From the IMG/VR virus record IMGVR_UViG_3300008267_001670, positions 1-25,973 of that record: a stretch of DNA of 25,973 bases; one strand, given 5' to 3'. Positions 18 through 4,898 of this stretch are shown one piece after another. Both the position numbers and the translations under genes were made by a program. Numbering within the stretch: position 1 is the stretch's first letter; every line of letters starts with the position of its first letter. Below the pieces are notes generated by a model. That model searched no databases. It was not told the DNA's origin and worked only from the letters and a program-made list of their open reading frames with translations. Source of the DNA: a virus.

Positions 18-160
18 TGATTTATATACTTCCTTACAGATCGCTTACAATATCGGTTTAACACGATGTCCATTATGTTAACCCAGATGTGGATAACTCC
101 GCTGTTTTTGCCTATTGCGTAGGCAACTTGCAGTTGTCCACAGGGCAGCGTGTACATCAT
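14..160 (-). CDS. Small hypothetical protein, 48 aa, coupled to terminase small subunit
   Basis: This ORF begins with ATGATG at 160, overlapping the TGA stop of the terminase small subunit gene (157-159) as ATGA. It ends in a TGA at 14-16 that overlaps the next ATG in the same way. The product starts M-M-Y-T-L-P-C-G and ends in a basic helix-like stretch rich in K, R and Y. No family is recognised. Stop-start overlaps at both ends favour a real translated gene. On the other hand, the same DNA holds a cluster of DnaA boxes, so the sequence could be constrained as an origin and the ORF be incidental. Confidence 0.45.
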   Translation of the reverse strand: MMYTLPCGQLQVAYAIGKNSGVIHIWVNIMDIVLNRYCKRSVRKYINQ

Positions 161-180
161 TGGCTTTTTTCTGTGGATAA
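88..180. other. Cluster of DnaA boxes, candidate replication origin
   Basis: Three DnaA-box sequences lie within 93 bases: TTATCCACA on the minus strand at 88-96 and again at 172-180, and the common variant TTGTCCACA on the plus strand at 134-142. The first two match the bacterial consensus at all nine bases. The adjoining stretch 1-80 is visibly A+T rich. One box lies in the tail of the terminase gene and two in the 48-aa ORF. A host DnaA-dependent phage origin is inferred. Confidence 0.5.
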
Positions 181-588
181 GTCATCAACGACCTCGACAT
201 GGCGCAGTGCCGCCATGCGTAGGTCTTGCACGTTGATGTTGATCTGCTGCGCCTTTTGTAAGCCATAAGTTTTCTGATCCCACCTCTCGGCGAGCCACTG
301 GCGCGTGCGGATGCGCTGGACATCGCGCTGCGCGTGATCGACATCCATGCCGTCTGCGATCTTTATCGTGTCACAGGCCATAAGATCGGCGGCACGCGTG
401 CGCGCGCGTGTAATCATAGCACTGTGATCGTTTTCCTCAATCCAATCGTCTAGCGCACGCTTGCCTATGCCCAGCTCAATGCAGATGTCGCCAATGCTTT
501 TCCCTGACTCAACCATGGCAAATATCATTTCCTCTGGCATATCGTTGAGAAATGCGACATCCTTTCTTCGCTTTGGTGTACCAGCCAT
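157..588 (-). CDS. Terminase small subunit (putative)
   Basis: The 143-aa product starts M-A-G-T-P-K-R-R-K-D and has a helix-turn-helix of the form S-I-G-D-I-C-I-E-L-G-I-G-K-R-A-L near residues 30-45. The second half contains R-T-R-Q-W-L-A-E-R-W-D-Q-K-T-Y-G, a pattern typical of DNA-binding small terminase subunits that present the packaging site to the large subunit. Start 588 is preferred: it follows the stop of a small coupled ORF by two bases and has GGGG upstream. An in-frame ATG at 642 would add 18 residues but has no ribosome binding site. Annotation as a small terminase rests on HTH plus this motif, without a similarity search. Confidence 0.72.
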   Translation of the reverse strand: MAGTPKRRKDVAFLNDMPEEMIFAMVESGKSIGDICIELGIGKRALDDWIEENDHSAMITRARTRAADLMACDTIKIADGMDVDHAQRDVQRIRTRQWLAERWDQKTYGLQKAQQININVQDLRMAALRHVEVVDDLSTEKSQ

Positions 589-590
589 GC

Positions 591-680
591 TTAACCCCGC
601 TTTAAAGCCATTTTGATGCGCTGGACTATGTCCAGTACCCATTCGCTGATAAATGCCGCCATGAGCTTAATTTGAGCCAT
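591..680 (-). CDS. Candidate 29-aa coupled peptide
   Basis: A 29-codon ORF starts at 680, inside the last codons of the preceding 227-aa gene (14-base overlap), with AAAGG 8 bases upstream of its ATG. It stops at 591, two bases before the terminase small subunit ATG. The peptide begins M-A-Q-I-K-L-M-A-A-F-I and ends R-I-K-M-A-L-K-R-G, reading as a hydrophobic or amphipathic helix with a basic end. It may be a leader that couples translation into the terminase gene, or a small membrane-binding peptide. No family recognised. Confidence 0.4.
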   Translation of the reverse strand: MAQIKLMAAFISEWVLDIVQRIKMALKRG

Positions 681-1350
681 CTCTGAACCTTTCTGCTTGC
701 TTAGAGTTGAACTTGTAATCCATGGTGTCATTGTCGCTGAAAGTAAGGTCATCGACAAAGTCATCAAACCCTGTTGCACCGCCAGGCTTGAATTCTGATG
801 TTGGTTTGAAACTGGTGAGCTGCGCCGTTGGAAACAGCGCCTTGATCTTGATCACCTCCTGCATCCGAGGATCGGCAAGCAGTGCTTCGATTTCCTGCAT
901 TGACCAAATGTGGTGGTTGGATATTTCTTGTCGGGACTTCTGTATGGCCACTGCCTCGTTGACTGTTCGCACAATGACCATAGTCTGGCCATTTTGCATT
1001 TCCCACTCAATCCTCGGTATGCCTGTCTCGGCTGGCTCGCAGCCATCATCTGTAGCCATCTGATCCAACGCGGCATACGCCCTGATCATTCCCGCCACGC
1101 TGGAATCAAACTTCACCTGATCTCTAGCCGCCATCGCTTGATGCAATCTTGTGTTCTGAGTCCAGAATTTCTCCCTCACCTCACTGTTTACCAAAGTACA
1201 CAGTCGGTTTTCTCCCCATTTCCTATCACTAGCGGCTTTGACCGACTCCAATTCCACCAACTTTGATTGAACGTGAATTGTCCAAGAGTCTGCCTTTGGA
1301 CTTGGTTGCTCTACCACTGGATGCTTGTTTGCTGTCTTCTTTGTCGCCAT
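667..1350 (-). CDS. Hypothetical phage protein, 227 aa
   Basis: No family is recognised. The N-terminus is Lys/Ser/Pro rich (M-A-T-K-K-T-A-N-K-H), the middle is a mixed helical region with a run of charged and hydrophobic residues, and the C-terminus is acidic (D-D-F-V-D-D-L-T-F-S-D-N-D). It lies between the primase-helicase and terminase small subunit genes, so a role in replication or packaging is possible but only by position. AGGGA stands 9 bases upstream of the ATG. The 144 bases before it hold the iteron-like spacer rather than another gene. Confidence 0.75.
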   Translation of the reverse strand: MATKKTANKHPVVEQPSPKADSWTIHVQSKLVELESVKAASDRKWGENRLCTLVNSEVREKFWTQNTRLHQAMAARDQVKFDSSVAGMIRAYAALDQMATDDGCEPAETGIPRIEWEMQNGQTMVIVRTVNEAVAIQKSRQEISNHHIWSMQEIEALLADPRMQEVIKIKALFPTAQLTSFKPTSEFKPGGATGFDDFVDDLTFSDNDTMDYKFNSKQAERFRDGSN

Positions 1351-1392
1351 TTCGTTTATCCCTATTTTGGTGCTACTTGGTCACATACAGTG

Positions 1393-1490
1393 GTAACAAA
1401 CCTCCGAGTCTTAGACTCTCGGTTTGTTACTTGTTACCTGTACGGAACAAACAAGTTACATTTGTTACCTGTTTGTTACTTGTTAACTGT
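1393..1490. repeat. Iteron-like repeats with a large hairpin
   Basis: The non-coding spacer 1351-1494 contains five direct copies of TTGTTAC or a one-base variant at 1423-1430, 1431-1437, 1461-1468, 1472-1479 and 1480-1487. An inverted copy lies at 1393-1400. A 19-base unit at 1423-1441 recurs at 1472-1490 with one mismatch. GTAACAAACC at 1393-1402 pairs perfectly with GGTTTGTTAC at 1421-1430, enclosing a second stem (GAGTC 1406-1410, GACTC 1414-1418). No U-tract follows on either strand, so it is not a terminator. The spacer lies directly downstream of the primase-helicase gene, as an origin or operator would. Confidence 0.6.
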
Positions 1491-1494
1491 CTAT

Positions 1495-3522
1495 TCATAC
1501 AGCATCAAAGTCTTCACTTTTACGCTGCAACCACACATATTGATCCCTAATATCTCCCTCGCCTGACTTCTGTAGATCGTCCCTGGCACGCTTCCACGCC
1601 ATCTTGAATGAGCTTTTATCCTCATCAGTACACCCCATCTTTGACCACAATTCCTGCCGCCACACCTCCAACTTGATGGCATGGCGTTGTAAACCATCGA
1701 TGTACTTTGGCGCTCCATGCTCTTTAACCATTCGCTCCAAGCATTGCATCGCCAGTCGCTGATTCTTACCGCCTCCCGCGTTACTCTTGCCTGCCCTTTT
1801 GGGTTGTTCGTTGACGGCTGAGTCGCTGGCCTGCACCGCCAAGCTACTTACCAATGGCCTGATCTGTACTTCGACCATCTCAAAGCCAAAGCGCTCGTTG
1901 TCGGCTCCATCCTTTTGCTTGCTGATAGTGATCACGCCCTTAAGCTGCTCGTCAAAGCGCAGTAGTTCAAGCTCTGTATCTACTGCGCCAAGCAGGGAAG
2001 AATGCCCGCGCAGTCCTTTGGCGGCGTCTTTGCCACTGTGATGCAGCACCATCAAGGCGCAGTTAAGGAATTCTTGGACCTTACCCATGGCCGTAATGAA
2101 TGCGCCCATGTCTTCGCTGGAGTTCTCATTGCCGCCGCCAAATGCTCTAGCCAATGTGTCCACTATGGCTAACTGAAACTCCATGCCTGTCTGCTCCACC
2201 AGCTGCACCACTGCCAACATCAGCGCGTTGAAGTCCTCGGCACTAGACCTCAGGTTTAACTGGTGCCTAACTATGTATATGGGTGCTCCATCTTCGGTTT
2301 GGTGGTGCAGCTTGCAAGCTTTGATGCGTGCGCCGATACCGCCAAAGCCCTCTCCTGCAAGGTACAGCACCGCGCCTGTCTGCTTAACTGGCCTGCCCAT
2401 CCAACTGCGCCCTGTGGCTATGGCCTCGGCAATGTCTAGGGCTATGAACGACTTGAAACTGCCTGGCGGTCCATAAAGCGCTGTAAATGATCCTTTAGGG
2501 ATAACCCCCTCTATCAGCCACTCAACTGGCTCGTCCTGTATCTCGTCCCAAGATTCAATCTTGATGGTCTTAGTTGGCTTTGGTGCTGGCGCTTCCTTTG
2601 GCGGGTCAGGCGCAAACTCTTTGGCAATGTCCTCTGCTGGTGGTTGCGGCACATCAATTGGCGCATTCGGTTGATAAGCCTGTAGTCTTTCGGGTATCGT
2701 TACATCATCCACGCTGATGATCTTTGGCGCTGCCTTGACCAGTGCCGCCAGCTCTGCCCTGCCGCCCCCTGCCTCGATGAACTCGTAGGCATCATCGCCC
2801 TGCTCTTGCAGTCCGAGGTCAACGACCTTGACTGCCTTGGCAATTGGCAAGATGGCCTCTGCTGCCTTGCGTGCGTAGGACCAGCCTGACAGATCGTTGT
2901 CCGGCAGGATGACTACATTTGCTCCAGCAAAGTATTCGGTGATGGCCTCCGGCCAATGCCCTGCGCCACTATGCGCTGTGGTTGCCGCCACGCCGAGAGA
3001 CATCAGCGCGTCCACCGCCTTCTCTCCCTCCGCGAGATAGATTATTCTTCCCGCCGTCTTCGCGTCCAGCAGCTCTGGCAGTTTGTAGGGGACGATCCTT
3101 GCGTCACTTAGCGTAGGGTAGCGCTTGCCGTCACTGTCAACTTTATAGAGCCTATAAGTCTTGCCAGACTCCCCTACGCGCAGCCGGTGCTTGACAAAGA
3201 CTGTGACGCGGTCCTCGTCTTGGTACTGCCACTCCTGCTGAAACTCCACTTTGGGTAATGGCTTGATGTTGGCTAATGGATCGGGGCGCTCTTCCAGTTC
3301 GGGTAGGAGCTGCATATCCCTGATGGTTTGAAATACTGACTCCTGTGTGCAGCCACCATGACAATGGAATAAAACCTTGCCCTCGTCATCTATGTGTACT
3401 GACAGTGATGGGTTTTTGTCTCCATTGCCTTTGCCGTGGGACGGCACTGGGCATGATGCCACCCATTGGCCGTTGGCTCTTTTCGCGTTGCCCAAGCTCT
3501 TGGCTATTTGTTCTGCTTGCAT
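1495..3522 (-). CDS. Replicative primase-helicase
   Basis: The 675-aa product combines priming and unwinding functions for phage DNA replication. Visible parts are a CHC2-like zinc finger at residues 24-58 (C-P-V-P-S-H, then H-C-H-G-G-C), a TOPRIM fold at about 158-230 (L-A-E-G-E-K and L-P-D-N-D), and a Pro-rich linker at about 285-318. A RepA/RecA-like ATPase follows, with Walker A G-P-P-G-S-F-K-S at 351-358, Walker B L-A-I-V-D-T at 451-456 and H-H-S-G-K-D near 494-499. Start 3522 is chosen over 3558 because AGAGG lies 5 bases upstream. It overlaps the end of the methyltransferase gene by 19 bases. The C-terminal 100 residues are basic and unassigned. Confidence 0.9.
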   Translation of the reverse strand: MQAEQIAKSLGNAKRANGQWVASCPVPSHGKGNGDKNPSLSVHIDDEGKVLFHCHGGCTQESVFQTIRDMQLLPELEERPDPLANIKPLPKVEFQQEWQYQDEDRVTVFVKHRLRVGESGKTYRLYKVDSDGKRYPTLSDARIVPYKLPELLDAKTAGRIIYLAEGEKAVDALMSLGVAATTAHSGAGHWPEAITEYFAGANVVILPDNDLSGWSYARKAAEAILPIAKAVKVVDLGLQEQGDDAYEFIEAGGGRAELAALVKAAPKIISVDDVTIPERLQAYQPNAPIDVPQPPAEDIAKEFAPDPPKEAPAPKPTKTIKIESWDEIQDEPVEWLIEGVIPKGSFTALYGPPGSFKSFIALDIAEAIATGRSWMGRPVKQTGAVLYLAGEGFGGIGARIKACKLHHQTEDGAPIYIVRHQLNLRSSAEDFNALMLAVVQLVEQTGMEFQLAIVDTLARAFGGGNENSSEDMGAFITAMGKVQEFLNCALMVLHHSGKDAAKGLRGHSSLLGAVDTELELLRFDEQLKGVITISKQKDGADNERFGFEMVEVQIRPLVSSLAVQASDSAVNEQPKRAGKSNAGGGKNQRLAMQCLERMVKEHGAPKYIDGLQRHAIKLEVWRQELWSKMGCTDEDKSSFKMAWKRARDDLQKSGEGDIRDQYVWLQRKSEDFDAV

Positions 3523-4898
3523 ATCGCCTCTACTTGTTCTATGCGTTGCCCTATCCACGCCATGACAGGCACTGCCATGCTGTTGCCCAATGCTTTGTAG
3601 CGCGGACCATCAGGTGTAGGTTTGTTTTTGCTTTTGATGTCGGTGTAGCTGTCGGGAAAGCCTTGGAGTCTCTCGCATTCAACAGGGGTCAAACGGCGCA
3701 CTGCCATTGCTTGCATGACTGTCGGACCAGTTTTACTTGAGGTGCTTCCAGCGGTACTCATGCAGGCCGCCACATCGCCTGTGATTGACAGGTTGTACAA
3801 GTCTGTACCTACTGCAACCGCCATCGGATTCTTTGCTTGCAGAGTTTGCGTCATGTCCACATCTGTTTGCGGGTTTGACATCTGACCGCTGAATGCAATG
3901 GGTTGCATCACGATAGGCTCATGCCCATGCGTTTCACGCCTAAGAGTGCCTGTCATGTCATGCTCAATATTCATCACGCTACCGCCTTGATCCATCAGGC
4001 AGATGGGTTGCACTATTGCTGGTGGATGAGCTCCTGCCGCTAATGGGTGGCATGGATCACCTGACTTTGGGTTGTTGCCGTTTTGCGGTGATGTTATTTG
4101 CGTTGTGTCAAACGGGATTGGTTGCGCCACCAAGTCAGTTGCGTCCTTGTAATCCCTTGCTTTCATTGCTGAAGCTGTTCCATCAACTGCGTATTCACCA
4201 AAAGCAACCATGCGGGCGGCAATTAAATTTTCCGAACCGCCACCAATATCCCCACCATGCGCCATCAGAGTTCCGACACCCTCGCTATACCCTCCAATGC
4301 TGCCTCGAGTGTAGGAGGTAACACCTTTCCCCTTTTCTCTGCTCGGCGCAGGATGCCCTTGCAGGCTGTGGCGCTCAAAAAGAACCGCCGCGGCAAGTCG
4401 CCAATCTCCAAGGTATCCGACAACGAACACACGGCGGCGTCGCTGTGCCACTCCGAAGTACTGAGCGTCAAGAACTCTGTAGGCGAACCCATACCCGAGT
4501 TCTCCCATCCCTCGAAGTAGTGAGGCAAAGTCGAGTCCTCGGTTACTGGATAGCACGCCAGGGACGTTCTCCCAGACCAACCATCGGGGGCTATATTGAC
4601 GAGCAATGGCAAGATAGGTAAGCATGAGGTTGCCACGCGGGTCATCCAGTCCTTTTCTGAGTCCTGCGACTGAGAATGACTGGCATGGTGTTCCTCCAAC
4701 GAGAACATCGACATCTGAGACATTTGTCCACTCCTTAAATTTCGTCATGTCGCCAAGGTTTGGCGTTGATGGGTAATGATGTGCAAGCACTTCTGATGGG
4801 AATCTTTCGATCTCCGAATACGCTACTGCTTCCCAACCAAGGGGATGCCATGCTACTGTTGCCGCCTCAATACCACTGCATAGTGAGAGATATTTCAT
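3504..4898 (-). CDS. DNA (cytosine-5-)-methyltransferase
   Basis: The 464-aa enzyme transfers a methyl group from S-adenosylmethionine to C5 of cytosine. All core motifs are visible: L-C-S-G-I-E (motif I, residue 6), P-C-Q-S-F-S-V-A-G with catalytic Cys72 (IV), E-N-V at 110 (VI), Q-R-R-R-R-V-F at 152 (VIII), R-R-L-T-P-V-E-C-E-R-L-Q-G-F-P-D at 401-416 (IX) and G-N-S-M-A-V-P-V at 438 (X). Residues 200-400, where target recognition is expected, are unusually repetitive. In phages such enzymes usually protect against host restriction. There is no ribosome binding site, and a terminator sits just upstream, so expression may depend on read-through. Confidence 0.93.
   Translation of the reverse strand: MKYLSLCSGIEAATVAWHPLGWEAVAYSEIERFPSEVLAHHYPSTPNLGDMTKFKEWTNVSDVDVLVGGTPCQSFSVAGLRKGLDDPRGNLMLTYLAIARQYSPRWLVWENVPGVLSSNRGLDFASLLRGMGELGYGFAYRVLDAQYFGVAQRRRRVFVVGYLGDWRLAAAVLFERHSLQGHPAPSREKGKGVTSYTRGSIGGYSEGVGTLMAHGGDIGGGSENLIAARMVAFGEYAVDGTASAMKARDYKDATDLVAQPIPFDTTQITSPQNGNNPKSGDPCHPLAAGAHPPAIVQPICLMDQGGSVMNIEHDMTGTLRRETHGHEPIVMQPIAFSGQMSNPQTDVDMTQTLQAKNPMAVAVGTDLYNLSITGDVAACMSTAGSTSSKTGPTVMQAMAVRRLTPVECERLQGFPDSYTDIKSKNKPTPDGPRYKALGNSMAVPVMAWIGQRIEQVEAICKQNK
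3699..4286 (-). repeat. Degenerate repeats in the methyltransferase recognition region
   Basis: Residues about 205-400 of the methyltransferase consist of five to six imperfect units of roughly 27-38 residues. Each has a T-(G)-T-L/A segment followed by a closing element such as L-V-A-Q-P-I-P-F, I-V-Q-P-I-C-L, I-V-M-Q-P-I-A-F or T-V-M-Q-A-M-A-V. The repeats are protein-level; the DNA has diverged. They occupy the space between motifs VIII and IX, where C5 methyltransferases carry the target recognition domain. Confidence 0.65.

Follow-up and report, generated by a model that had tools for sequence, protein, structure and literature searches.

The locus examined here raises the question of what function is served by a short non-coding spacer that lies directly behind the primase-helicase gene of an environmental phage. 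The fragment is an IMG/VR record of 25,973 bases, the whole of which is referred to below as the window. Its minus strand encodes, in the order of transcription, a primase-helicase, a 227-aa protein and the small terminase subunit (terS), with a 144-bp spacer separating the first two genes (Table 1). A preliminary description of this DNA had interpreted the spacer as an iteron-type origin of replication. The analysis strongly supported this reading, and it is considered very probable that the spacer is the replication origin and that its initiator is the product of the primase-helicase gene immediately upstream, whose C-terminal domain apparently reads the iterons.

Several direct copies of a short site were found adjoining the putative initiator gene, as is required of an iteron-type origin, and the array and its hairpin occupied DNA in which no gene was detected, as had been stated. 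Of the five direct TTGTTAC copies originally claimed, four were exact and the fifth read TTGTTAA, while the single inverted copy was located as proposed. The longer unit said to recur with one mismatch was measured as 20 nt (1422-1441 and 1471-1490). In none of 60 simulated 26-kb sequences did any 7-mer reach five copies within 100 bp, and among 3000 simulated 144-bp sequences with the first-order composition of the spacer the maximum was four copies of the same 7-mer, never five. The GC content of the spacer was 38%, against about 49% in the surrounding kilobases, with no separate A+T tract evident in the window. The spacer contained no DnaA boxes, and GC skew presented no clear turning point. 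The earlier judgement that transcription termination was unlikely could be upheld, since no U-tract followed the array on the transcribed (minus) strand; the sole terminator-like match, a weak 5-bp one on the plus strand, was discarded.

Table 1. Coordinates of the features discussed (positions in the window)
Feature	Position	Strand	Basis or remark
Three DnaA boxes	88..180 (88-96; 134-142, one mismatch; 172-180)	-; +; -	downstream of terS
Terminase small subunit gene (terS)	157..642	-	
227-aa gene, just past the putative origin	667..1350	-	iteron class not followed
Putative replication origin (non-coding spacer)	1351..1494	-	no gene; architecture kept in 132/132 spanning relatives, 63 distinct spacers
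Possible third, outermost stem, TACAG/CTGTA	1386..1442 (1386-1390/1438-1442)	-	RNA fold
Nested hairpin	1393..1430 (outer stem 1393-1402/1421-1430; inner stem 1406-1410/1414-1418; loop 1411-1413)	-	
Inverted iteron GTAACAA, left arm of hairpin outer stem	1393..1399	+	
Iteron GTAACAA (TTGTTAC on plus strand), also right arm of hairpin outer stem	1424..1430	-	
Iteron GTAACAA	1431..1437	-	
Degenerate inverted iteron GGAACAA	1444..1450	+	sequence; present in most GTAACA-type relatives
Iteron GTAACAA	1462..1468	-	
Iteron GTAACAA	1473..1479	-	
Degenerate iteron TTAACAA	1480..1486	-	sequence; GTAACAA in close relatives L003 and L025
Primase-helicase gene, putative initiator	1495..3558	-	AAA_25/RepA-type helicase core, residues 336-512
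C-terminal domain, putative iteron reader (residues ~578-687)	1498..1827	-	co-segregation with iteron class; AF2 model

Relatives were gathered by using the helicase and the 227-aa protein as scan queries, which yielded 132 loci spanning the spacer and corresponding to 63 distinct spacers, some loci being overlapping views of one contig. In all 132, a tandem array of heptamers preceded a hairpin in which one iteron and its inverted copy made up the outer arms. Relatives keeping the gene order and lacking the repeats, which would have refuted the origin reading, were not seen among them. In the suggested check for matching repeats in related phages, repeats were present near the primase gene in all 132, but their letters differed. 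Instead of being conserved, the iteron letters switched in concert in all copies within a phage, and at least eight iteron sequences were recognized (GTAACA, GTTACA, GGGAACA, GCGACAA, GGAGACA, ATCAGAA, ATCGGAA and GTTACGT). The classes were assigned manually from k-mer counts, and recombining phages are non-independent samples. Six relatives (L010, L029, L037, L041, L042 and L053) displayed spacers of ~250 bp with an A+T-rich middle and, at the distal end, another iteron block in inverted orientation, resembling two-block origins. A genome scan for a prophage or host returned eight candidate stretches, none of which was confirmed.

The 10-bp perfect stem enclosing a second stem, also reported at first inspection, was present, with a DNA fold of -12.9 kcal/mol (z -4.2) and an RNA fold of z -4.05. 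Across 35 distinct hairpins, 90% of the outer-stem positions were Watson-Crick over 10 pairs, compared with 64% (maximum 69%) with shuffled partners and 28-40% in slid registers, and both-side changes occurred in nine of the ten pairs. These pairs were counted on an ungapped register, since the MAFFT alignment of the hairpins misplaced a gap in the ATC classes. As the iterons switch together, pairing in the iteron part of the stem is expected anyway, and it is the linker between iteron and tip, which also changed pairwise (AAACC/GGTTT, AAATC/GATTT, ATTTC/GAAAT), that independently supports pairing or a dyad. Arms equivalent to the possible outermost stem were matched by eye in other classes (GCATGG/CCATGC, CACAA/TTGTG, TCCAG/CTGGA). 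The tip of the hairpin was near-invariant among relatives (GAGAGTCT..GACTC, with rare single changes), which makes it uninformative on pairing and suggests a common function. Of 13 long contigs, 11 contained the exact tip once, and the two others (those of L057 and L015) had a tip that differed by one letter. In a pattern scan of IMG/VR, a tip with an outer iteron dyad was, among the matches listed, always beside the helicase/227-aa locus; the other tip matches listed looked like chance or unrelated hairpins. It was also observed, at 1403-1424 and in relatives, that the letters next in the stem are repeated on the right side of the internal loop (GGAGG, GATGA, GTAGT), which would allow two alternative pairing registers for the upper stem in almost all classes.

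The iteron class co-segregated, almost perfectly, with only the last ~110 residues of the primase-helicase. When the comparison was restricted to helicase pairs more than 80% identical over residues 1-560, the difference between same-class and different-class identity did not exceed 0.032 in helicase windows up to residue 570, nor 0.027 in the 227-aa protein, but it rose to 0.28-0.44 in the windows covering residues 571-675. The association had sharp limits, breaking off at residue ~570 on one side and ahead of the next gene on the other, and four further neighbours besides TerS did not track the iteron class. The same picture emerged from class changes counted on maximum-likelihood trees and compared with shuffled labels. 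On the tree of the helicase body, 28 changes were required, which is near random (shuffled mean 32.6, minimum 28); 110-aa segments of the body required 25-30 and the 227-aa protein 28 (shuffles across body and 227-aa trees: means 31-33, minima 27-28). Residues 578-687 required only eight, the lowest possible number being seven (shuffles: mean 32, minimum 25). At the level of single pairs, the window and L046 shared 97.4% of the helicase body but 25.5% of the C-terminal domain, with iterons GTAACA versus ATCAGAA, and the window and L014 (GTTACA) shared 98.0% and 67.9%, respectively. One helix of this domain bears class-specific letters; this putative recognition helix always read FKT[AV]W[HS]RAK in GTTACA phages and FK[MV][AT]W[KGS]R in GTAACA phages.

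The helicase core resembles RSF1010 RepA (1g8y, E 1.6e-7). Ahead of it, CHC2 zinc-ribbon and Toprim signals were weak and below cut-off, which, together with the PHROG matches of the protein to primase, points to a putative primase part. The AF2 model of the C-terminal domain predicted a helix-strand-strand-helix-helix-strand-strand order, which is winged-helix-like, with moderate confidence (mean pLDDT 69, core 71-84). Foldseek with this model returned no PDB match at E <= 0.001 and only weak winged-helix-like matches, the origin-binding domain of P4 being absent from the best 50, and the sequence of the domain had no credible match in PDB and Pfam. Given a moderate model and weak structural matches, a winged-helix fold is likely, not proven.

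Among named phages, the layout was most clearly shared by Roseobacter phages, in which helicase identity was about 30-32%. CRP-821 and CRP-831 carry GTATAA iterons and CRP-811 and CRP-823 carry CTACAA iterons, and the hairpin tip was ACCCTTTAGGGTTT in all four. CRP-821 and CRP-823, which share one host strain (FZCC0197), are 98% identical in the helicase body and 73.5% in the last part, with different iterons, whereas CRP-821 and CRP-831 are 90.7% identical in the body and 99.3% in the last part, with identical iterons. Judging from these sequences, the pair CRP-821/CRP-823 is an independent natural swap of tail domain and iterons. Neither iterons nor direct repeats nor a replication origin are mentioned in the published roseophage paper. 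Most of 58 distinct marine loci presented the same layout, with about 17 additional iterons and, in many loci, the hairpin tips CCTTTAGG or CCTATAGG. In this diverged set, 21 class changes were required on the body and 18 on the C-terminal domain (minimum 17); since the marine iteron class largely follows phylogeny, these phages back the architecture more than the swapping. Six marine loci (L281, L283-L285, L288 and L291) harbored 12-14 iteron copies in 330 bp (ATGTGAAAA, GTATGAAA, TGTAGAAA).

A similar type of arrangement was found in the Rhizobium phages 16-3 (L263:4041-4400) and RHph_X2_25 (L266:3518-3900), in which many GCGTGACA iterons and a long hairpin with a TTTA loop lie behind a primase/AAA_25 gene, the 16-3 homologue being a Prim-Pol with AAA_25. 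The GCGTGACA array and hairpin are likely the origins of these phages. The distant homologue MW202711 (35% identity) showed no obvious iterons behind repA, indicating that the architecture is not universal among phages with AAA_25 helicases. A large C5 cytosine methyltransferase gene (3504-4898) lies directly upstream of the helicase gene in the window; MW202711 and RHph_X2_25 likewise have a cytosine methyltransferase close to repA and to the helicase gene, respectively, and in 16-3 a DNA methylase is found in that place.

The covariation of iterons and C-terminal domain suits any function that uses this domain, including an operator or attenuator in which the iterons, through the domain, or a hairpin in the transcript would control the 227-aa gene and the terminase without any origin. 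The array does lie ahead of the next, codirectional gene, the hairpin would be present in the same-strand RNA, where its predicted fold is also stable, and the few G-U-like pairs in the outer stem were counted on the same side. Nevertheless, the spacer contained no promoter-like site and had no Rfam match, the reader domain is part of a primase-helicase whose own gene precedes the array instead of following it. Operator and origin are not mutually exclusive, and regulation in place of replication is regarded as improbable. It is less likely still that the association reflects linkage alone, that is, that a recombination hotspot extending from the helicase body to the hairpin tip swaps neutral DNA and the domain does not read the repeats. 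Linkage could account for part of the association, since domain and iterons are adjacent, and the block that is exchanged is bordered by conserved sequence; however, neutral swaps would not keep the copies and the inverted copy alike within phages and different between them, the recognition-helix letters track the iteron within otherwise diverse domains, and the same pattern recurs in a distant marine family. A packaging (cos/pac) site read by the small terminase encoded two genes on can be practically set aside, for even though terS is nearby and packaging sites of phages can contain repeats, the 227-aa gene intervenes and TerS identity does not follow the class (0.777 for same versus 0.745 for different class), which the last helicase domain does instead.

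For the preferred reading, an initiator-iteron origin, a sequence of events can be proposed, in which direct binding, origin activity, the order of events and the primer site are all inferred, no binding or replication data being available. The C-terminal domain of ~110 residues, probably a winged helix, would bind the heptamer iterons, and this binding would load the RepA-like hexameric helicase onto the A+T-richer spacer. Upon melting, the dyad would extrude as a hairpin, on which the primase part would lay the first primer; a role of the hairpin as melting or priming site is likely. The C-terminal domain and the iterons would constitute one specificity cassette, whose exchange would leave the helicase body, hairpin tip and adjacent genes in place.

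The DnaA cluster previously noticed at the left end of the window proved real, with three boxes, ~1.2 kb from the spacer, that were kept at fixed spacing in 25 of 25 relatives displayed regardless of iteron class. Because switching of the iterons leaves the cluster unchanged, the two are separate elements, and host DnaA may act at the cluster; the region is a candidate for a second, constant origin or a regulatory element. Conserved beside the boxes were TTAACATAAT..GTGTTAAA and TGTAAG/CTTAC motifs. The 227-aa gene adjoins the putative origin in all relatives, and its product was assigned to neither a Pfam nor a PHROG family and was unmatched in named phages.

The origins of uncultured environmental phages are seldom identified, and here a putative origin, its initiator and the reading domain could be named from sequence alone. 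About twenty matched pairs of domain and iteron, several of them on near-identical bodies, constitute a natural data set on how the DNA specificity of an initiator changes. The repeated switching, as analysed here, points to selection for private origins, possibly imposed by co-infection, satellites or origin-targeting nucleases; such selection has been shown experimentally for PLE and its phage ICP1. CRP-821 and CRP-823, both grown on one host strain, render this testable now. A broader conjecture, which is put forward only tentatively and may well fail, is that these phages fall into dozens of compatibility types for replication, with a C-terminal domain and an iteron set matched in each, and that the cassettes are traded among phages sharing a host because a rival, satellite or defence nuclease with the same iterons can steal or attack the origin. 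If true, one could read from this natural series of types a code by which a winged-helix initiator recognizes DNA.

Modular origins of initiator and iterons are already known. In lambdoid phages, a type-specific O initiator and its iterons are exchanged as a module, as proposed here, but in lambda the O gene itself contains the iterons, and its product is neither helicase nor primase. The iterons of plasmid RSF1010 are longer than the heptamers found here. Its oriV combines a RepA-type hexameric helicase, as in the present phages, with iterons and with hairpins that are primase start sites (PMC4234260). These functions are distributed in RSF1010 among three separate proteins, RepA, RepB' and RepC; a division into a separate RepC iteron binder and a separate RepB' primase does not hold for the window, where the helicase is fused to a primase-like part and the 227-aa protein ignores the iteron class. 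Ectopic copies of the origin block phage lambda (PMC4488673).

In the P4 alpha protein, primase, helicase and an origin-binding winged helix are united in one polypeptide acting on origin repeats (PMC4234260), which the winged-helix domain proposed here would parallel. The present helicase is, however, of the RepA/AAA_25 type and did not meet the criterion for SF3, no sequence match to a solved origin-binding domain was obtained, and a compact array with a hairpin lies directly behind the gene. This last feature recalls pRN1 and phage BIP-1, in which an extended stem-loop is situated immediately 3′ of the primase-helicase gene, its stem letters varying while the fold is kept, as in the relatives described above; the stem-loop is required in pRN1 (PMC4234260). 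Those systems employ an archaeo-eukaryotic primase and an SF3 helicase, have no iterons, and no specific binding has been found (PMC4234260), whereas here the iterons form the arms of the stem and the protein shows neither of those two enzymes. In Gordonia phage initiators, exchange of a winged-helix domain has been noted, without iterons (PMC10684548). No report was found in the open-access literature of the combination of an exchangeable reader domain, iterons and a hairpin behind the primase-helicase gene, and a one-protein initiator with iterons and hairpin behind its own gene, as inferred here, would be a new form of modular origin.

The closest parallel in behaviour is PLE, the satellite of Vibrio cholerae, in which the DNA-binding domain of the RepA initiator covaries with the iterons of the origin while the rest is conserved, replication requires the cognate pair, and the modules have been swapped experimentally (PMC8263062). 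The reader in PLE is a RepA_N domain, for which no Pfam match was obtained in the primase-helicase, and it acts on three semi-palindromic iterons of ~30 bp, with two types described (PMC8263062). In the phages analysed here, the corresponding elements are the C-terminal domain of a primase-helicase and heptamers combined with a hairpin, in at least eight types in one group and ~17 in another.
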